This document shows, piece after piece, positions 10,153 through 21,521 of a stretch of 64,000 nucleotides of DNA. Position numbers and translations under genes: made by a program. Source of the DNA: Psychrobacter immobilis (GTDB taxonomy: Bacteria > Pseudomonadota > Gammaproteobacteria > Pseudomonadales > Moraxellaceae); the NCBI GenBank assembly GCA_904846145.1, contig CAJGZL010000001.1, positions 3,100,001 to 3,164,000 of the forward strand, given 5' to 3'. Position 1 is the stretch's first letter; each line of letters starts with the position of its first letter. The notes beneath the pieces are model-generated. The model did no database searches and was not told where the DNA came from. It saw only the letters and a list, made by a program, of their open reading frames with translations.

Positions 10153-11304
10153 TTACATAAAGCGCGAGGCCAGCTCTTTCATAATCTCATTAGTGCCGCC
10201 GTAGATTTTTTGTACGCGAGCATCAGCATACATACGAGCGATTGGATATTCTGACATATAACCGTAACCACCGAATAGCTGTAAGCACTCATCCATAGTT
10301 TTGCACTGTTTTTCAGTTACCCAGTACTTAATGAGCGAGGCTTGCGCGGCGTCAAGCTTACCCTCTATTTGCGCCTCCACTGCTGAATCGCACAAGGCTT
10401 TTACCGCTAAGTAATCCGCTTGTACCTCAGCGAGCTTAAAGCGCGTGTTTTGGAACTTCCAAATCGGCTTGCCAAAGGCTTCACGTTGCTTGACATAATC
10501 GAGTGTCAGCTCTAAAGCCAGTTTCATAGCGCCGCAGCCACTTAGAGCAATAATCAGGCGCTCTTGTGGCAACTCTTGCATCATGTGCATAAAGCCTAGA
10601 CCTTCCATACCGCCGAGTACGTTTTTCTGTGGCACACGGACATTACTAAAGAATAGCTCTGAGGTATCTTGACCAGCAAGGCCCGTCTTTTTAAGGTTGC
10701 GACCACGTGAGAAACCTTCTAAACCATCCGTTTCAACGAGGATAAGAGAGACGCCATGAGCACCTTTGTCGCGGTCTGTCTTACAAGCTAATAGCACAAT
10801 ATTGGCATGCTGACCGTTAGTGATAAAGGTCTTTGAGCCATTGATGATGTAGTCATCGCCGTCCTTTTTGGCAAAGGTCTTAATGGCTTGTAAGTCAGAC
10901 CCTGTACCAGGTTCCGTCATCGCAATAGCGCCAACGTATTCGCCCGTTGCCATTTTAGGTAGCAATGATTTTTTCTGCTCTTCTGTGCCAAGCTTATAGA
11001 TATAGGGCGCTACAATACCTGAATGCACCATACCGCCATAACCTGCTTGGTTCGCTTGCGCTTGCGCTAATAAAATAGCAGCTTCATGACCAAAGTCGCC
11101 ACCGCCGCCGCCATATTCTTCTGGTATTGATGCACATAAAAAGCCCATCTCGCCAGCCTCTTCCCAAGCATCACGATCAATCATGCCGTTTTCACGCCAT
11201 CCTTCGTCTCTGTCTTCCCAGCTTTGGAACATTTTTAGGGCACTGTCATATACCATTTCGTGCTCTTCGGTCATCCATTTTGCTGCAAATGCGTTAATAC
11301 TCAT
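10153..11304 (-). CDS. Acyl-CoA dehydrogenase
   Basis: This FAD enzyme makes the alpha-beta double bond in acyl-CoA. The 383 residues show the signature AIAMTEPGTGSDLQAIKTFA near residue 125, the SKTFITNG block, and the C-terminal GGYGYMSEYPIARMYADARV followed by QKIYGGTNEIMKEL, whose Glu is at the usual catalytic-base position. It is the first gene of the leftward operon acd-thiolase-fadB-caiB. Its promoter region is shared with the divergent TetR gene and contains two GGTAAT/ATTACC palindromes. A truncated paralogue lies on the other side of the regulator. Confidence 0.93.
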   Translation of the reverse strand: MSINAFAAKWMTEEHEMVYDSALKMFQSWEDRDEGWRENGMIDRDAWEEAGEMGFLCASIPEEYGGGGGDFGHEAAILLAQAQANQAGYGGMVHSGIVAPYIYKLGTEEQKKSLLPKMATGEYVGAIAMTEPGTGSDLQAIKTFAKKDGDDYIINGSKTFITNGQHANIVLLACKTDRDKGAHGVSLILVETDGLEGFSRGRNLKKTGLAGQDTSELFFSNVRVPQKNVLGGMEGLGFMHMMQELPQERLIIALSGCGAMKLALELTLDYVKQREAFGKPIWKFQNTRFKLAEVQADYLAVKALCDSAVEAQIEGKLDAAQASLIKYWVTEKQCKTMDECLQLFGGYGYMSEYPIARMYADARVQKIYGGTNEIMKELASRFM

Positions 11305-12425: not shown

Positions 12426-12959
12426 CTAAGCCGCATTGCAAGCCACCAAAATCAAGTTGGCATGCTGACCATTAGTAATAAAGGTCTTTGAGCCATTGAT
12501 AATATAGTCGTCGCCATCTTTTACCGCATAAGTCTTTAGCGCTTGCAAATCTGAGCCTGTGCCCGGTTCTGTCATAGCGATAGCCGCGATGTATTCGCCA
12601 CTTGCCATTTTTGGTAGCCACTGTTGCTTTTGCTCTTTTGTTGCATGATGCAAAATGTAAGGCGCGACGATTCCTGAATGCACGATACCGCCAAATCCTG
12701 ACTGATTGGATTCTGCTTGAGCATAAATAATAGCGACTTCATCACGAAAATCACCGCCACCGCCGCCATACTCTTCAGGCATTGAGGCACATAAAAAACC
12801 GTTCTCTCCAGCCTCTTCCCAAGCCTCGCGATCGATCATGCCGTTTTTGCGCCACTGCTCGTCTTTTGGCTCCCAACCTTTAAACATTTTGAGCGCACTC
12901 TCATAAATCATTTTGCGCTCTTGAGTCATCCAGTCTGGCGCTAGGTTTTCGATACTCAT
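12426..12959 (-). pseudogene. Truncated acyl-CoA dehydrogenase (N-terminal half only)
   Basis: The frame encodes 177 residues closely similar to the N-terminal half of the acyl-CoA dehydrogenase at 10153. The two share, for example, AIAMTEPGTGSDLQA and DGDDYIINGSKTFITNGQHA. It stops abruptly after LILVACNAA, where the paralogue continues with the substrate-binding and catalytic C-terminal domains. The catalytic Glu and half the FAD site are therefore missing and the product should be inactive. Two GGTAAT-type palindromes lie upstream of its start, so the promoter unit was probably duplicated with the gene, or the operon once ran from both sides of the regulator. Confidence 0.88.
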
Positions 12960-13480: not shown

Positions 13481-14365
13481 ATGACCTTATCTAGCAAGTC
13501 CACGCCTATATGCTTGGCGCCTGATACGTTCGCTGAGTATCTGTCCTATCAGAATCAATACTGTTTGTTTTTGGATATCGATGGCACGCTAGCTACTTTT
13601 ACTCTTGACCCAAAAGATAGCTTCATTCCTAGTACGACTCTTAATATATTGCAACAAATACAAGGCTTAGGCGTCGATATTGCGGTTGTCACGGGCCGTA
13701 GTCTGGATAACGCAAGGACAATGCTCTTCCCTTTGGTCTTACCTATCGCCGCCACCCACGGTCTTGAGATCTTTACCAATAAGCACTCAACGGGTTAGAC
13801 AGACGATATGACTCATATCAAGCAGATAGATATCAAAAAGCTTAGCGTTATCAAACAGGCACTTATACAGGCCTGCCAGTTTTATCCTAAAGTCCGTGTA
13901 GAAGATAAACCCTACTCTATCGCCTTACATTTCCGTGAGTATCCAGCTTTAGCAGAGGTTGCGTATAGCCTGATCACTCAAGTCGCAAAACCTTACCCTA
14001 ATTGGATCATAAAATCTGGTAAATATGTTTGGGAGCTAGTGTCACAAGACGCGAATAAAGGCACGGCAATTTTGACTTTGCTACAATCAATGCAGACGGA
14101 TAAGACACTTTGTCCCATATTTATTGGTGATGACAGCACTGATGAAGCAGGATTTGAGGCGATACAGGGCGATCACAAAGCAGGTATGGGTATCAAAGTC
14201 GGTACTGAGCCGACTTCTGCACATTACTATGTAAATGACACAGATGAAGTAGTCACGCTACTTCACCGATTTTTTGATTTTTGTCAAAAGCAAGCCTCAC
14301 TACCTCGTCACTTAACAGAATCTTCTCCACTTGATTCGCCTAAATATTTAGGACCATCATTGTGA
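13481..14365 (+). pseudogene. otsB: Trehalose-6-phosphate phosphatase OtsB interrupted by an in-frame TAG
   Basis: OtsB removes phosphate from trehalose-6-phosphate. The N-terminal part has the HAD nucleophile motif FLDIDGTLATF near residue 30 and VVTGR near residue 72. A TAG at 13796-13798 follows HGLEIFTNKHSTG. The same frame then continues with TDDMTHIKQI and recognisable OtsB sequence, including KGTAILTLL and the Mg-binding FIGDDSTDEAGF. With readthrough the product would be 294 residues, a normal OtsB length. The two parts would have to be made separately (the second could start at the ATG at 13808) or by amber suppression; otherwise the gene is dead. It ends in a GTGA overlap with otsA. 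Confidence 0.85.
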
Positions 14366-15973
14366 GTCGTCTAATCGTCTTATCAAATCGGGTGAAAATG
14401 CCTGATAATGCTCAGGCGGCGGGCGGGCTTGCCGTAGCATTGGACGATATATTGGTCGGCAGTTCGGTGATTTGGATGGGCTGGAATGGCGAAGTGGTCG
14501 AAACTTTTGCTGATAATAGCAACCAGTTTAATAGCCGCAAACACAGCTTTTTTTCGCAGACCAATACACAAACTGATACACGTTCTTATAAGCAGCAAGC
14601 GCATAAAGACGTTACCTACATGACGACAGCACTTACGCGCAGGCAGTATCAGCATTTCTACTGCGGTTATGCTAATAGTGTGCTGTGGTTCATGCTACAT
14701 GAGCGCCCAGAATTAGTTAGTGAAGCTATGGATGATTATGCAGGCTATCAGGCGGTAAACTGCTTATTTGCGCGTCAATTAAGTCAAATCATTGAGCCTG
14801 ACGATGTCATTTGGGTACATGATTATCACTTTTTGAGCGTGGCGTATTATTGCCGAAAGCTAGGTATCAACAACCGTATTGGCTTTTTTTTGCACATTCC
14901 GTTTGCGCCATTAGCGTTTTGGAAAAAAATAGACAAAAGTGCTGAACTTATAACGCATCTTGCCCATTACGACGTCATTGGTATGCAAACTGTGCAAGAT
15001 AAGATCAACTGTATAGACGTCTTAAGCTACTATTTATCTAAACACTCAAACGATGTATCCATTGTTGAATGATGTAGAGTCTATAAAATCAGATAAAACC
15101 CATGTACAAGTTGATTTGGGCTACCCTACATCGCACCATTTGACCATCCACACCTACCCTATAGGCATCAATGTCGATAAAATTCAAACACAAGTAAGTC
15201 ATCTATCATCCAAAAATTTGACACACAGACCAAAAGACAGTACTACTCAGTCAGTAGCACAGCAAATCATAGCAGTCGATAGAATTGATTATTCAAAAGG
15301 TTTGTTACAGCGGTTTTGGGCATATCATAAATTTCTCAAGACATATCCTGCCTATCAACATCAGCTTGAACTACTACAAATTGCCTGTCCGAGCCGCTTG
15401 GACTTACCCGTTTACCAGCAGCTTTATACTCAGGTTAAGCAAGTCGTTGATGATATCAATCAGCAATTTGCAACTTCTAGCTGTCACACGTATCACTCAC
15501 AAAATACATCTCGTAACTGTACTTTACAACATAACTGGCAGGCGGTTCATTACAGCGAAAAAGTGCTTGATCATGAGACGCTGATGCAAGCATTTTGGCA
15601 TAGTAATGTGGGCTGGGTGAACTCGCTTAAGGACGGTATGAACCTTGTTGCCAAAGAATATATCGCCGCGCAAAATCTTGATGATCCTGGCGTGCTACTA
15701 CTCTCAAAATATGCAGGCGCCGCCGAACATATGCAAGCAGCAGTGATCATTGATCCGCATCAACCCGTAAGTATCATAGAGGGTTTAAAAACGGCCTTAA
15801 CGATGCCACTTTCGGAGCGAAAAGAGCGACATCAGACGCTACTAGCGGGCTTACGCGACTATGATATTAATGCCTGGCAACAAGACTTTTTGGCGGATCT
15901 ATATACTATTAAGTCTGATCAAGCAAAAAACACGCTACCAAGAGCTACTCATAAGTTTGATTTACAAGAGTAA
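14362..15973 (+). pseudogene. otsA: Trehalose-6-phosphate synthase OtsA with a frameshift
   Basis: OtsA makes trehalose-6-phosphate from UDP-glucose and glucose-6-phosphate. The GTG start at 14362 overlaps the otsB stop. The first 236 codons contain AGGLAVAL, the IWVHDYHFL block and GFFLHIPFAP. That frame ends at 15072. The next frame, open through 15973, continues with TIHTYPIGINVDKIQTQ, VDRIDYSKGLLQRF and KDGMNLVAKEYIAAQ, which are classic OtsA donor-site motifs. The shift lies between about 15030 and 15072 and equals one inserted or two deleted bases. Neither half alone can form the GT-B enzyme. No obvious slippery heptamer is visible there, so mutation or a sequencing error is more likely than programmed frameshifting. 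Confidence 0.87.
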
Positions 15974-15986
15974 TTTGGAGAATGTT

Positions 15987-17120
15987 ATGGCGAATATAGA
16001 AGTCCCATTACGGCAAAATACTTTATTAGAGAGTATCAAAGGCGATATAGAAAAAAGGCTAGTCGCTGATCAGCAAGTGCTAAATACGCTTAGTATCACC
16101 GATGAACGACGCTACGATATATTAGACATTTTAATTAAGTACAGTCAAAGCGTACCGCATCCTGGTAACGCCACTAGTGATGGCAATGGACAAGATGCAA
16201 GCACCCTTGAGCGTTGGCAAATCCTCGCTTATGTCGCAAGTGTTGATCTAACCCTTGCTAAATGGTTTGAATCACACTTAGATGCGCTGAGTATCTTCTA
16301 TGAAATTGGCTACGCAAAACCTGTAAAAGGCTTGCTTGCAGTTTGGGCAGCAGAGGGTCACCCTTTATCCTTTAAGCCGGACGATACTAACCAGCAAGGC
16401 CAAGTTAATGGCACTGTTAATGGCACTAAAGCTTGGTGCTCAGGGGCGCACATTGTTGATTATGGGCTGATGACTTATCGTGACAAAGACGCTCGTTCGC
16501 AATTGCTGATCGTCGATATGCAACAAGACGGTATTGCTATTGACACTAGTAGCTGGCAGGCGGTTGGTATGCAAGCTACGGATACAGCGACGATAGATTT
16601 TGATAACGTAGCCGCTGAGCAAGTTGGCGCAGCAAATGAGTATTTAGACAGAGTAGGATTTTGGCATGGCGCCGCTGGAGTTGCCGCTTGTTGGTATGGT
16701 GCGACAGTCTATCTAGCAGACTATTTAATCAAAGCTTATCAGCATAAGCCTAACGATTTTAAGGCCATGTATTTAGGTCAAGTCAGCATGATATTAGCAG
16801 CGACTCAGCAATCCTTTTATCACGTCGCGCGCTTAATCGATACGCAGCCGCAGCACAGTCATGAGTTAGCTATTCGTCAGCTCAGAGCACATACTGAGCA
16901 AGTAGCAAGGCAAGTATTGGATGCTGCCGGACAGGCACTAGGTGCAGCACCGTTTTGCGGCAATGCACATTTTGCAAGAGTGGCCGCTGACTTACCTGTA
17001 TTGATACGCCAAAGCCATGGCGCTTTTGATCTACAAAAAATTGGCGAGCTCACTGCTCAATCAGTCAGCCAGTTGAGAAATGACTCAACCCATAAGCGAG
17101 AAAACATATGGCAACTATAG
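15987..17120 (+). CDS. Acyl-CoA-dehydrogenase-like flavoprotein of an aminosugar-type cassette
   Basis: The 377-residue protein has the fold signature of acyl-CoA dehydrogenases: an N-terminal helical domain, a central beta region with KAWCSGAHIVDYGLMTY and VGMQATDTATIDFDNV, and a C-terminal helical bundle. The sequence is divergent and I cannot see the usual YEGT.EI catalytic segment, so the substrate is probably not an ordinary fatty acyl-CoA. The ATG at 15987 follows TTTGGAG; longer frames upstream lie inside otsA. It starts 13 bp after otsA and overlaps the PIG-L gene by 13 bp, so it is translationally linked to the deacetylase, methyltransferase and glycosyltransferase. Confidence 0.8.
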   Translation: MANIEVPLRQNTLLESIKGDIEKRLVADQQVLNTLSITDERRYDILDILIKYSQSVPHPGNATSDGNGQDASTLERWQILAYVASVDLTLAKWFESHLDALSIFYEIGYAKPVKGLLAVWAAEGHPLSFKPDDTNQQGQVNGTVNGTKAWCSGAHIVDYGLMTYRDKDARSQLLIVDMQQDGIAIDTSSWQAVGMQATDTATIDFDNVAAEQVGAANEYLDRVGFWHGAAGVAACWYGATVYLADYLIKAYQHKPNDFKAMYLGQVSMILAATQQSFYHVARLIDTQPQHSHELAIRQLRAHTEQVARQVLDAAGQALGAAPFCGNAHFARVAADLPVLIRQSHGAFDLQKIGELTAQSVSQLRNDSTHKRENIWQL

Positions 17121-17851
17121 CAGAGGATCAAACAGATACGGCAAATGCAAATAGTATAAAAAACCATCCTATCGTAGGTGATCGCGTAATTGAGGGCGAT
17201 GGTACCAGTCAAGACGCTTGGCAAAACTGGCCAGGACTGCATCATCTGCCGCCGCTAGATATAACAGCACATCTCCCAGCGCACAAGCGCGTATGTATCT
17301 TTGCCCCGCACCCTGATGACGAGATACTAGGCTGCGGCGGACTACTCCAGCACGTAGCCGCTAATGGCAACCCTATCCTCCTTGTACATGTCACCAATGG
17401 CACCCAAAGTCATCCAGACTCAACCCTTTATCCTCCAAAGCAGCTCAATACTATTCGCCCGCAAGAGAGCATTAACGCCTTAAAAGCGCTAGGTATTGCG
17501 CACCAAGTATCCATTATCGCTTTGGACTTGACGGATGGTAACGTATTCGCTGAGCAAGAACTATTTAATAAAAAATTAGCGACTATTATCCAGCCTAATG
17601 ATATTTTGGTGACGCCTTTTATTCACGACGGTCATCCTGATCATGAAGCGACAGGACAAGTCATTCAAGCATTTGCTAAGCGCCAACATTTAGCCTGTTA
17701 TCAAGTCCTGATTTGGGCATGGCATTGGGCGCAGCCTGACGATAGCCGAATTCCTTGGCACAGTGCACTAAGACTAGATTTGAGTGCTGAGCAGGTACAG
17801 CGTAAATCGCAAGCTATTACTTGTTTCACCAGTCAAATCACCACTGATTAG
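17108..17851 (+). CDS. PIG-L family N-acetylglucosamine-type deacetylase, conserved tail cut off by TAG
   Basis: PIG-L (LmbE-like) zinc enzymes remove N-acyl groups from GlcNAc-type substrates. The zinc motif APHPDDEILGCGG is near residue 63 and the second metal/catalytic block PFIHDGHPDHEATG near 175. Translation stops at a TAG (17849-17851) after FTSQITTD. The same frame continues 29 more codons, STGNPPILSAQTIARISQP then WEVYLHEPQS, to a TAA at 17938-17940. That tail looks like the normal C-terminus of these proteins and overlaps the methyltransferase start, as expected for the ancestral end. The metal site lies before the TAG, so the short form may still be active. Confidence 0.85.
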   Translation: MATIAEDQTDTANANSIKNHPIVGDRVIEGDGTSQDAWQNWPGLHHLPPLDITAHLPAHKRVCIFAPHPDDEILGCGGLLQHVAANGNPILLVHVTNGTQSHPDSTLYPPKQLNTIRPQESINALKALGIAHQVSIIALDLTDGNVFAEQELFNKKLATIIQPNDILVTPFIHDGHPDHEATGQVIQAFAKRQHLACYQVLIWAWHWAQPDDSRIPWHSALRLDLSAEQVQRKSQAITCFTSQITTD

Positions 17852-17924
17852 AGTACAGGCAATCCGCCTATTTTATCCGCGCAAACTATCGCTAGAATCA
17901 GCCAACCTTGGGAGGTTTATTTGC

Positions 17925-18695
17925 ATGAGCCACAATCCTAAATCTATCATAGCAACGAGTGTTGCCGACACTTTAGTCAATAGCGATAACAGTTTAAGCG
18001 CTTCTAAGGATTGCTCTCAATCTGACGCGTATTCAGAGACGTATTTTGAGGTATTGTATACTGACAACAGCGACCCTTGGCAGTACCAGACGCGCTGGTA
18101 TGAAAAGCGCAAACGAGACATGTGCCTTGCGGTATTGCCACAAGCAAAGTATACCAATGCCATAGAATTGGGCTGCGGTAATGGCGTATTTAGTGAGCTG
18201 CTTGCACGTCGTTGTCAGTCGCTTTTAAGCCTAGATGGTAATGCCAAAGCGGTTCAACTTGCCAGACAGCGTTTAAGAGACTTGTCTGGGGTCAAGGTGT
18301 TACAAGGTATCATTCCTAGCGCGCTATTCACTCTAGAAAACGATGCTTTGTCAGACAATGCGCCCACTTATCATCCCCCCTTTGATGCAATCATTATCAG
18401 TGAAATTTTATACTATTTATCGCCAGCTGATATCGATAGCGTTATTAAATGGATAAAGCAAAACCTAGCTACAGGCGGTACTTTACTATGCTGTCATTGG
18501 CGCTATGTTATCGAGGGTTTTACTATGACGGGCGAGACCGTGCATCAACGCTTACAGCAAGCGTTTGATGCATCGACCCATCAAGCAGAACACTTAGCCT
18601 TTGAGCATCAAAGTCAAATCATAGATCGTGATTTTTTGTTAGATGTTTGGCAGTATTCCGATCAGTCGGTCGCCATGCAAGAAAACTTAATATGA
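17925..18695 (+). CDS. NodS-like SAM-dependent methyltransferase
   Basis: The 256-residue protein has the NodS family signature DPWQYQTRWYEKRKRDM followed by the SAM motif I NAIELGCGNGVFSELLARR and motif-IV-like IIISEILYYL. NodS N-methylates the free amino group of deacetylated chitooligosaccharides in rhizobia. The ATG at 17925 sits inside the ancestral end of the PIG-L gene, and the stop overlaps the glycosyltransferase start as ATGA. The context (deacetylase before, glycosyltransferase after) supports N-methylation of a deacetylated sugar, but the real substrate is unknown. Confidence 0.87.
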   Translation: MSHNPKSIIATSVADTLVNSDNSLSASKDCSQSDAYSETYFEVLYTDNSDPWQYQTRWYEKRKRDMCLAVLPQAKYTNAIELGCGNGVFSELLARRCQSLLSLDGNAKAVQLARQRLRDLSGVKVLQGIIPSALFTLENDALSDNAPTYHPPFDAIIISEILYYLSPADIDSVIKWIKQNLATGGTLLCCHWRYVIEGFTMTGETVHQRLQQAFDASTHQAEHLAFEHQSQIIDRDFLLDVWQYSDQSVAMQENLI

Positions 18696-19423
18696 TTAAT
18701 AATAATCAGCACCATCATAAAGCGGATGTTAATAATAACAAGATGGATATAAAAATCGCTATCGTCATTCCTGCGCATAACGAAGCGGCGACTATCAGCG
18801 ACTGCTTAAACGCAGTGCAAAACTCGATCGAGCAATTAGCTGCAGCCATCGATACATATATAGTAGTCGTGCTCGATAGCTGTACGGATGCTACGCGCGC
18901 GATAGTCGAAAATGCTGGCGCTGACTATATAAGCTGCGATTATCACTGCGTAGGGCAAGTGCGGGACTTAGGTATTCGCCATGCGATCACGCAAGGGTTC
19001 ACTTGGATTGCTTGTACCGACGCCGATTCAGTAGTGACTATAGATTGGCTGGTGCAGCAAATTGCACATATCAACCACAAACCGACTGATATGATCTGCG
19101 GGGTAGTGAGTGTCGATAGCTGGGCACACCTAACGCCGCAAACGCGCAGTGAGTATATGGCCCATTATCAAGACAAAATGAATCACCGTCATATTCATGG
19201 TGCAAACTTAAGCTTTAGTAGTCAGGCGTATAACGAGGTCGGTGGTTTTGCATCTGTTAAATGCCATGAGGATGTGGATTTGGTCAAAAAGTTCGAGTCC
19301 AAAGGTTACGCTATTACTTGGAGTAATCGTGTCCGCGTCACTACCAGTAGCCGCTTGCAAGCGCGAGCAAGTGAAGGGTTTGCTGCATTTTTAGCTAATA
19401 TAGAAAACGGTCATAAAAAGTAG
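18692..19423 (+). CDS. Family 2 glycosyltransferase
   Basis: This GT-A type nucleotide-sugar transferase has 243 residues. It shows the start AIVIPAHNEAATISDCLNAV near residue 20, VVLDSCTDATRAIV, the DxD-like ACTDADSVV and the acceptor-side CHEDVDLVKKFESKG. No membrane segment is evident, so it is probably cytoplasmic. The ATG at 18692 overlaps the methyltransferase stop; another ATG at 18743 directly precedes the catalytic domain. It is the last gene of the operon beginning with otsBA. The four downstream genes together suggest transfer, deacetylation and methylation of an aminosugar. Confidence 0.87.
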   Translation: MINNNQHHHKADVNNNKMDIKIAIVIPAHNEAATISDCLNAVQNSIEQLAAAIDTYIVVVLDSCTDATRAIVENAGADYISCDYHCVGQVRDLGIRHAITQGFTWIACTDADSVVTIDWLVQQIAHINHKPTDMICGVVSVDSWAHLTPQTRSEYMAHYQDKMNHRHIHGANLSFSSQAYNEVGGFASVKCHEDVDLVKKFESKGYAITWSNRVRVTTSSRLQARASEGFAAFLANIENGHKK

Positions 19424-19553: not shown

Positions 19554-19875
19554 ATGACTAAGGCAGGTCATGACGTGGGTTTTGATTTCAACTTTACTAA
19601 GGATAGTCGCACTTATCATACTTTTGATATGCATCAGCTTCTGCACTGGGCCAATCTACAAGGACGCATGCATGAGTTAAAGCAAGCGTTGTTCGCCGCT
19701 CACTTTACTCATGCTAGAGAAGTCTCAAGCCAAGACGTTTTAGCAAAGTAAGTGTCAGCAAGAGATTCAAAGTGTACCTTCTGTTATTTTTAATCAACAA
19801 CACCTGGTCAGCGGCGCTCAAGGGGTCGAGAAATTCAAGAACATCTTGCAGCAGTTAGCAGATTTGCCAAGATAA
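19554..19875 (+). pseudogene. Relic of a DsbA-family (FrnE-like) oxidoreductase
   Basis: The segment from 19554 encodes AGHDVGFDFNFTKDSRTYHT then FDMHQLLHWANLQGRMHELK, which matches the middle of FrnE/HCCA-isomerase-like DsbA proteins. After a TAA at 19749-19751 and a short gap, another piece encodes SVPSVIFNQQHLVSGAQGVE up to a TAA at 19873-19875, the family's cis-Pro (VP.VIF) and C-terminal part. The thioredoxin-like N-terminus with CXXC and the region between the two pieces are missing. The relic follows the glycosyltransferase and has no visible start signal. Confidence 0.8.
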
Positions 19876-20826: not shown

Positions 20827-21521
20827 ATGCCCTCTACCCCATCACCCTCTATCATCGTATTTGACGTTAATGAAACTCTGCTCGATATCGAAACGCTTGC
20901 GCCTTTGTTCGCTCGTCTATTCGGTGATAAGCGCGTACTAAGAGAATGGTTCGCGCAATTGGTGCTCTATTCGCAAACCATTACTTTATCAGGACTTTAT
21001 ACGTCCTTTGGTGAGCTTGGTGTTGGTGCATTACAGATGACGGCTGATATTCATAGCGTTACTTTAACGAATGATGATATTGACGAGTTTAAGCAGCTTA
21101 TGAGCGAGATGCCCGCTCATCCTGATGCAGTGCCCGCATTAACTAGATTACGTGATGCTGGCTTAGATTGGTGACCTTGACCAACTCAGCGAGCAGCGTT
21201 TCTCCTACGCCACTTGAAAAAGCAGGATTGGGTGAGTTCTTTGAGCGCTCGTTTAGCGTTGAGGCAGTCGCAAAGTTCAAACCTGCGCCCGAGACATACC
21301 AGATGGTCGCTAAAGAGCTGGCTGTTGAAATGTCAGATTTGTGCTTAGTGGCTTGTCATCTTTGGGATGCGATTGGCGCGCAAGCGGCTGGCTATCAAGG
21401 CGCGTTCCTCAAACGTCCTTATAACGCCATGTTGCCCGCATCCAACGTACCAACACCAGACTTTATGGCCTCAGATCTGGTTACGCTGAGTGATCAGATT
21501 ATTGACAAGTATCAAAACTAA
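20827..21521 (+). pseudogene. L-2-haloacid-dehalogenase-type HAD hydrolase, frameshifted
   Basis: The first part has the nucleophile motif IIVFDVNETLLDIETLAPLF and the cap region FAQLVLYSQTITLSG. The frame ends at 21174 after RLRDAGLDW. The -1 frame then continues directly with LVTLTNSASSVSPTPLEKAG and the C-terminal FKPAPETYQMVAKE and LVACHLWDAIGAQAAGY. One deleted base near 21160 (ancestral reading DAGL(R)LVTLTNS) explains it. Intact, it would be a type II haloacid dehalogenase-like enzyme of about 230 residues. It sits divergently from a TetR gene with clear operators, so regulation outlived the enzyme. Confidence 0.85.

Follow-up and report, generated by a model that had tools for sequence, protein, structure and literature searches.

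What does a compact gene cassette make when it combines a glycosyltransferase, a deacetylase and a NodS-like methyltransferase with a flavoprotein of acyl-CoA dehydrogenase (ACAD) fold, and is the pathway intact in Psychrobacter immobilis? We addressed this question in a window of 64,000 nucleotides, positions 3,100,001-3,164,000 of P. immobilis contig CAJGZL010000001.1 (genome 3.25 Mb). The initial annotation had named four genes here, encoding the flavoprotein, a PIG-L deacetylase, a methyltransferase (MT) dependent on S-adenosylmethionine (SAM) and a GT2 glycosyltransferase (GT), and all four are present, tightly packed on the plus strand at 15987-19423 (Table 1). Its overlaps of 13 bp (ACAD/PIG-L) and 4 bp (MT/GT2) are exact; the one between the ancestral PIG-L end and the MT gene is 17 bp rather than 16, and a 73-bp gap now lies 5' of the MT gene because PIG-L terminates early. 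The trehalose genes otsB and otsA stand upstream in the same direction, both present but interrupted. We propose, with about an even chance of being right, that the cassette encodes a cytosolic four-enzyme route to a small N-methylated, oxidised amino-sugar conjugate that would belong to a stress or dormancy programme.

The check set by the initial annotation, co-location of the four genes across phyla, came out in its favour: they stand together in several. Cassette genes were scored in locus counts at E 1e-3, the MT in a Pseudomonadota sample at E 1e-12, and one further conservation search was run at E 1e-5. Half of the 24 congeners searched (12) gave an MT match, and in each of these the four genes follow the same order, which is more than chance. 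Among 398 sampled Pseudomonadota genomes 31 had an MT match; the 29 of them outside the genus provided 30 MT loci, of which 28 had the ACAD gene within 5 kb in the same orientation, 23 a PIG-L, 22 a GT2 on either strand and 20 all of these genes. A scan of named genomes with one pattern gave 150 confirmed matches, and we kept the best 80. The ACAD gene was beside the MT gene at every one of these loci, PIG-L was present in 68/80 and a same-strand GT2 in 72/80, while at the other eight the GT2 gene of the locus runs on the opposite strand. All four genes shared one strand in 68/80 loci, from 17 named genera, in the orders ACAD-PIGL-MT-GT2 (57 loci) and GT2-ACAD-PIGL-MT (11 loci). Across 68 loci the pairwise distance matrices of the four proteins were correlated (r 0.915-0.941), which agrees with joint inheritance.

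Hosts in the named-genome scan included Acinetobacter, Pseudomonas, Halomonas, Salinicola, Xanthomonas, Luteimonas, Stenotrophomonas, Paraburkholderia, Cupriavidus, Polaromonas and Janthinobacterium, among others, and the cassette was also found in Cryobacterium, Cellulomonas and Glaciihabitans (Actinomycetota) and in a Polyangiaceae metagenome-assembled genome (MAG; Myxococcota). One scanned genome with all four genes (L120) was that of Acinetobacter baylyi. One cassette MT matched 46 plasmid records, 19 of them from Acinetobacter, of which three are chromosome-sized. A three-gene core was present on Deinococcus plasmids (no GT2 matched) and Nostoc plasmids (GT2 on the other strand), and further plasmid records with cassette matches came from Kitasatospora, Rubrobacter and Alphaproteobacteria such as Sulfitobacter and Bradyrhizobium. 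PIG-L and the MT gene of Deinococcus radiodurans are separated by a helicase gene. In two Deinococcus records (L086:2190-4529 and L098:4445-6817) the ACAD carries an N-terminal fusion of about 400 residues that look glycosidase-like by eye; one of these two proteins has a weak GH53 match (E 0.012).

The MT passed the Pfam NodS model PF05401 (46.7 bits, gathering cut-off 24), and the profile matched the solved structures 4isc at 243.5 bits, NodS (3ofj) at 107.8 bits and the next characterised family, phosphoethanolamine methyltransferases, at 55 bits. Structure 4isc, presumably from Pseudomonas syringae, is named merely a methyltransferase and is evidently a member of the same MT family. NodS (structures 3ofj and 3ofk) is thus the closest characterised relative of known structure. 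The cassette MT, judged by its sequence, is not NodS proper: it scored 59 bits against the NCBIfam NodS equivalog (cut-off 300), and although it shares the DPW and E-x-G-C motifs with NodS, it is only 24-32% identical to four NodS proteins, which form their own clade with 100/100 support. Membership of a true nod cluster was rejected on these grounds. The tree had 59 rows, included three of the 12 congener MTs (nine were left out) and is unsure in its root, which is meaningless because the outgroup branch measures 9.95 changes per column; the nesting of NodS within cassette MTs that the tree draws was therefore set aside. The MT also matches PADLOC mad2 at 58 bits over residues 48-215, probably through its methyltransferase domain. 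A defence system was discarded as a candidate, since PADLOC at E 0.001 gave no match for the other three cassette proteins, a search that did not extend to the remaining parts of the mad2 system.

PIG-L and the GT2 retain their catalytic motifs. PIG-L (profile A6, built from 21 of the 68 PIG-L sequences plus the two window pieces) scored 94.1 bits against PF02585 (gathering cut-off 28.2), with its HPDD and second histidine motifs intact (H68-D70-D71 and H176/H179, each kept by 90% or more of the aligned rows). In the part of PMC4101496 available, the HXDD plus H metal motif is that of LmbE-like enzymes, mostly deacetylases of N-acetylglucosamine (GlcNAc). The GT2 (profile A7, 23 GT2 sequences plus that of the window) scored 66.3 bits against PF00535, has invariant D110/D112 and E193-D194, and gave an AlphaFold 2 (AF2) model with a predicted local distance difference test (pLDDT) score of 91.1 that matches GT-A enzymes in structure.

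The initial annotation had called the flavoprotein a PF02771-type ACAD. PF02770, at 35.9 bits, was its sole match over the curated Pfam cut-off; PF02771 did not appear, and neither the N- nor the C-terminal ACAD domain passed, whereas an intact generic acyl-CoA dehydrogenase elsewhere in the window (10153-11304) passes all three. The AF2 model (pLDDT 90.8) has a full ACAD fold, aligning with solved ACAD-fold proteins at Z 29.7-31.5 over 321-338 residues. We built profile A5 from 46 of the 80 cassette ACADs plus the window protein (47 in all). Cassette flavoproteins scored at least 87 bits against it and two other matching locus open reading frames 17 and 23 bits, while two generic ACADs reached -2 to 5 bits against flavoprotein profiles; a generic beta-oxidation ACAD was rejected. 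The top profile match was TdsC at 46 bits (DszC/TdsC about 40-46 bits), and Foldseek likewise ranks both first; isobutyryl-CoA dehydrogenase 1rx0 followed at 31 bits and nitrososynthases 3m9v, 4kcf, 4zxv and 3mxl at about 24 bits. Of these, 4zxv is DnmZ, and 3m9v and 4kcf are structures of KijD3. Against NCBIfam DszC the flavoprotein scored 24.7 bits, under the cut-off of 850. It shares the motif G-x-K-x-x-CSG with TdsC and DszC, in contrast to the ITNG of the window's generic ACAD. In a MAFFT alignment Ser343 occupies the column of Glu376 of medium-chain acyl-CoA dehydrogenase (MCAD), which we take to be its catalytic glutamate; the sole generic ACAD compared has Gly there, and the base can sit elsewhere. 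An invariant His344 stands two residues past the column of the DszC-like LHDP histidine (the DszC-like rows L212 and L214 were left out of this reading). His391 is given as an active-site residue of DszC in the accessible part of PMC11134501. Taken together, the sequence comparisons suggest that the flavoprotein is more likely a flavin monooxygenase than a dehydrogenase, and the acyl-group role first suggested for it was not borne out, given the -2 to 5 bits of generic ACADs and the DszC-type monooxygenases among the best solved profile matches.

From these assignments we infer each reaction of a possible route, as well as its order, substrate, location and role. The GT2 would transfer an N-acetylhexosamine, probably GlcNAc, to an acceptor, trehalose being one candidate; PIG-L would then take the acetyl group off, the NodS-like MT would methylate the freed amine with SAM, and the flavoprotein would oxidise the product, more plausibly by the chemistry of a DszC-type flavin monooxygenase than by that of an acyl-CoA dehydrogenase. 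In some lineages its synthesis would accompany that of trehalose, catalase or DNA end-joining proteins. A bolder version, which we regard as improbable, is that the amino sugar, possibly in a trehalose conjugate, is deacetylated and N-methylated before the ACAD-fold flavoprotein, as a flavin monooxygenase, N-oxygenates it to a hydroxylamine or nitrone that acts as a radical scavenger or metal binder; the product would then be of a new class of general stress metabolite, and the methylation of Nod factors by NodS would have branched off, as a specialisation, from this older chemistry of amino sugars.

The initial annotation had noted that the operon begins with otsBA and suggested that the product may be linked to osmotic or cold stress. 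An OtsA-family search at E 1e-20 covered 25 genomes of the genus including that of the window. The cassette ACAD was present in 13, 12 of which had the otsA family, and otsA was found in none of the 12 genomes lacking the cassette, one of which is 83% complete (Fisher p 2.7e-6, uncorrected for shared descent). Given this co-occurrence, the genus seems to have acquired or lost trehalose synthesis and the cassette for the most part together. In 11 of 12 cassette-bearing congeners otsB and otsA lie upstream of the cassette. A link to trehalose genes is supported in the genus and again in Comamonas, where a single run reads otsA-ACAD-PIGL-MT-GT2-otsB. Elsewhere otsBA was near the cassette in Acinetobacter (five loci), in Rhizobacter (one locus) and in the Pseudomonadota sample (two loci of 30). 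Catalase was found at 13/80 named-genome loci, and in Pseudomonas rhizoryzae Ku and LigD are directly upstream of the cassette. On one Acinetobacter plasmid (L085) the cassette has transposase genes on one side and a trehalose-6-phosphate synthase gene on the other. In Acinetobacter baumannii X4-300 it adjoins a BOF gene and a BLUF photoreceptor gene; genes for BLUF blue-light sensors were recorded close to the cassette at L093:11036-11506 (A. baumannii) and L178:9593-10063 (the Polyangiaceae MAG).

Several observations weigh against the proposed stress-related amino-sugar conjugate. The genus otsA linkage may stem from one or a few shared losses. Ku and LigD occurred in 8/80 named-genome loci, exclusively in Pseudomonas. 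We also counted twelve stress markers at E 1e-8: at least one was present at 29/80 named-genome loci and none at 51/80. For the Pseudomonadota sample, 20 of its genomes each supplied a single control stretch, and the excess over these controls was weak, both for MT loci (8/30 versus 1/20, Fisher p 0.067) and for ACAD-bearing loci (7/28 versus 1/20, Fisher p 0.116). This enrichment is suggestive only, because the markers were picked post hoc, from neighbours seen at earlier plasmid loci. An EcfG-type promoter motif was found upstream of 3/14 alphaproteobacterial loci, two of them from Rhodobacterales, where 0.5 would be expected; as proof of stress control this is not decisive. Twelve of the 80 loci, all Burkholderiales by title, gave no PIG-L profile match; the profile also missed an annotated opposite-strand PIG-L in Cupriavidus basilensis and is thus incompletely sensitive. 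The fold search was rejected as a means of naming the GT2 donor, with fucosyl-, rhamnosyl- and UDP-GlcNAc-using enzymes near-equal at Z 21-24, and as a means of separating monooxygenase from dehydrogenase, with CoA dehydrogenases tying with monooxygenases among the best-aligned folds. Finally, His92 of DszC, presumably an active-site residue, aligns with a nearly invariant Lys92 in the flavoprotein family.

Other readings of the cassette must be weighed against the same evidence. The methyltransferase might act on something other than a sugar amine (an O-methyl acceptor, a phospho-base or a protein), with the genes joined by regulation rather than by one pathway. The 55-bit matches to phosphoethanolamine methyltransferases and the low identity to NodS both lean this way; we nevertheless consider it rather unlikely, as the NodS score is double that of the next characterised family, gene set and order are fixed across genera, and proteins annotated as GT/MT/deacetylase fusions exist. 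A little less likely again is the glycolipid first envisaged for this locus, in which GT2 and PIG-L would make a head group from an amino sugar, and an acyl chain on it would be desaturated or oxidised by the ACAD. PIG-L enzymes of the glycosylphosphatidylinositol type act on lipid-linked GlcNAc, and the fold of the flavoprotein matches isovaleryl- and short-chain acyl-CoA dehydrogenases over the whole protein at Z of about 30, but its sequence places it outside the generic ACAD family, with TdsC and DszC as its top profile matches, and no acyltransferase lay between cassette genes in the gene tables examined, those of the plasmids being incomplete.

We think it very improbable that the product is a low-molecular-weight thiol or redox buffer resembling bacillithiol or mycothiol, made through the glycosyltransferase and PIG-L. 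BshB1 is indeed the top NCBIfam model for PIG-L and catalase genes accompany some of the loci, yet the BshB1 score of 54.6 bits is far under the cut-off of 182.5, MshA and BshA are GT4 enzymes unlike the cassette GT2, and the gene tables examined, which are incomplete, contained no cysteine ligase.

Whether this strain still uses the cassette is a separate matter. The otsB reading frame is the same on either side of its stop codon, and a single 552-residue congener open reading frame matches both otsA pieces (14362-15072 and 15053-15973) in two frames. The TAG in PIG-L cuts the last 30 residues, which are partly conserved in relatives, so that the protein is not full-length; the in-frame DNA 3' of the stop still encodes the tail kept by relatives, and the lesion is therefore either recent or an assembly error. 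Damage extends to the surroundings. A truncated ACAD of 177 residues (12426-12959, minus strand), a paralogue of the generic ACAD at 10153-11304, has no matched C-terminal domain, and a HAD hydrolase near the operon (20827-21521, plus strand) is split over two frames. Elsewhere in the window, long open frames of 1417, 1091, 860 and 803 residues are intact, and this combination favours local decay. With PIG-L, otsA and otsB interrupted, the sequence indicates that the operon is probably decaying and the pathway probably being lost in this strain. That the three lesions are sequencing or assembly errors in a truly intact operon is a less probable but serious alternative: a single assembly was at hand and the PIG-L tail remains in frame, but two of the three lesions are in-frame stops rather than frameshifts, and the window combines its long open frames with the extra broken genes. 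A scan of the window for a tRNA that could suppress the TAG codons found no tRNA, the scan covering the window only. A stretch at about 19555-19875 (plus strand) resembles, by eye, the terminal part of a DsbA/FrnE-type oxidoreductase and lacks an intact frame.

Table 1. Genes of the cassette and the adjoining trehalose genes in the P. immobilis window (window coordinates).
Feature	Position	Strand	Evidence and remarks
otsB (trehalose-6-phosphate phosphatase)	13481-14365	+	Both pieces match PF02358; in-frame TAG at 13796-13798
otsA (trehalose-6-phosphate synthase)	14362-15973	+	Pieces match PF00982; frameshift near 15050-15072
ACAD-fold flavoprotein, 377 aa	15987-17120	+	PF02770; distinct cassette family
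PIG-L deacetylase	17108-17851	+	PF02585; relic in frame to 17941 beyond TAG at 17849-17851
NodS-like SAM-dependent methyltransferase (MT), 256 aa	17925-18695	+	PF05401; profile matches; tree
GT2 glycosyltransferase, 243 aa, GT-A fold	18692-19423	+	PF00535; conserved motifs; AF2 model

A compact gene set kept over several phyla, carried on Acinetobacter plasmids and standing in part beside stress genes would be consistent with a shared small survival molecule. If so, NodS-type methyltransferases would gain a role outside symbiosis, and the presence of the cassette in Acinetobacter baylyi would make a direct genetic test possible in a laboratory species. No function for the gene set was found in the open-access literature; the one mention, in the portion of PMC6240043 available, gives none. 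That portion places a glycosyltransferase, a methyltransferase, an LmbE-like protein and an acyl-CoA dehydrogenase/oxidase beside blsA in another strain of Acinetobacter baumannii. The text of a BLUF paper, PMC3554667, does not contain acyl-CoA, glycosyl, methyltransferase or LmbE.

Among known systems, the blsA neighbourhood has the same gene set as found here, the available part of PMC6240043 reporting neither a function nor wider conservation. The PIG-L protein resembles the LmbE-like enzymes BshB and MshB in family and metal motif and scores far lower than their equivalog cut-offs (BshB1 54.6/182.5, BshB2 43.8/195.25 and MshB 16.9/224.35 bits). With DszC/TdsC and the nitrososynthases the flavoprotein has in common an ACAD fold without close kinship to the CoA dehydrogenases, and with DszC the CSG motif; set against this are an identity of about 15% in fold alignments and its Lys92 for DszC His92.

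Of the Nod-factor enzymes NodC, NodB and NodS, NodB belongs to the polysaccharide-deacetylase family, whereas the cassette has PIG-L at nearly all loci. The ACAD, MT and GT2 of Rubrobacter indicoceani have as their neighbour a polysaccharide deacetylase (PF01522), presumably of the superfamily of NodB, at a locus that gave no match to PIG-L; on the Rubrobacter plasmid L092:6951-11602 a polysaccharide deacetylase, ACAD, MT, pyridine-nucleotide oxidoreductase and GT2 are consecutive, with arsenic genes further downstream. Plasmids of Rhizobium, Sulfitobacter, Sinorhizobium and Mesorhizobium encode a NodS-like MT domain inside one long protein, and two of these four proteins (Rhizobium and Sulfitobacter; L101:7426-10428 and L102:7375-10455) are annotated glycosyltransferase/class I methyltransferase/polysaccharide deacetylase. 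The MT domains of these two neighbour NodS in the tree with 85/89 support, and the loci with such a fusion have no cassette ACAD. In Nod factors, N-methylation needs prior deacetylation, according to the part of PMC5080398 available, and by analogy PIG-L and NodS-type chemistry would fit in one pathway. The Nod-like logic first proposed for the locus therefore holds in outline for deacetylation and N-methylation; a literal Nod-factor pathway is unsupported, because the deacetylase and the glycosyltransferase differ in kind from NodB and NodC. The cassette and the Nod-factor set are alike in having a glycosyltransferase, an N-deacetylase and a NodS-like N-methyltransferase. Unlike the chitin synthase NodC, the cassette GT2 is a 243-residue GT-A domain alone, and the cassette adds an ACAD-fold flavoprotein to a methyltransferase that lies outside the NodS clade.

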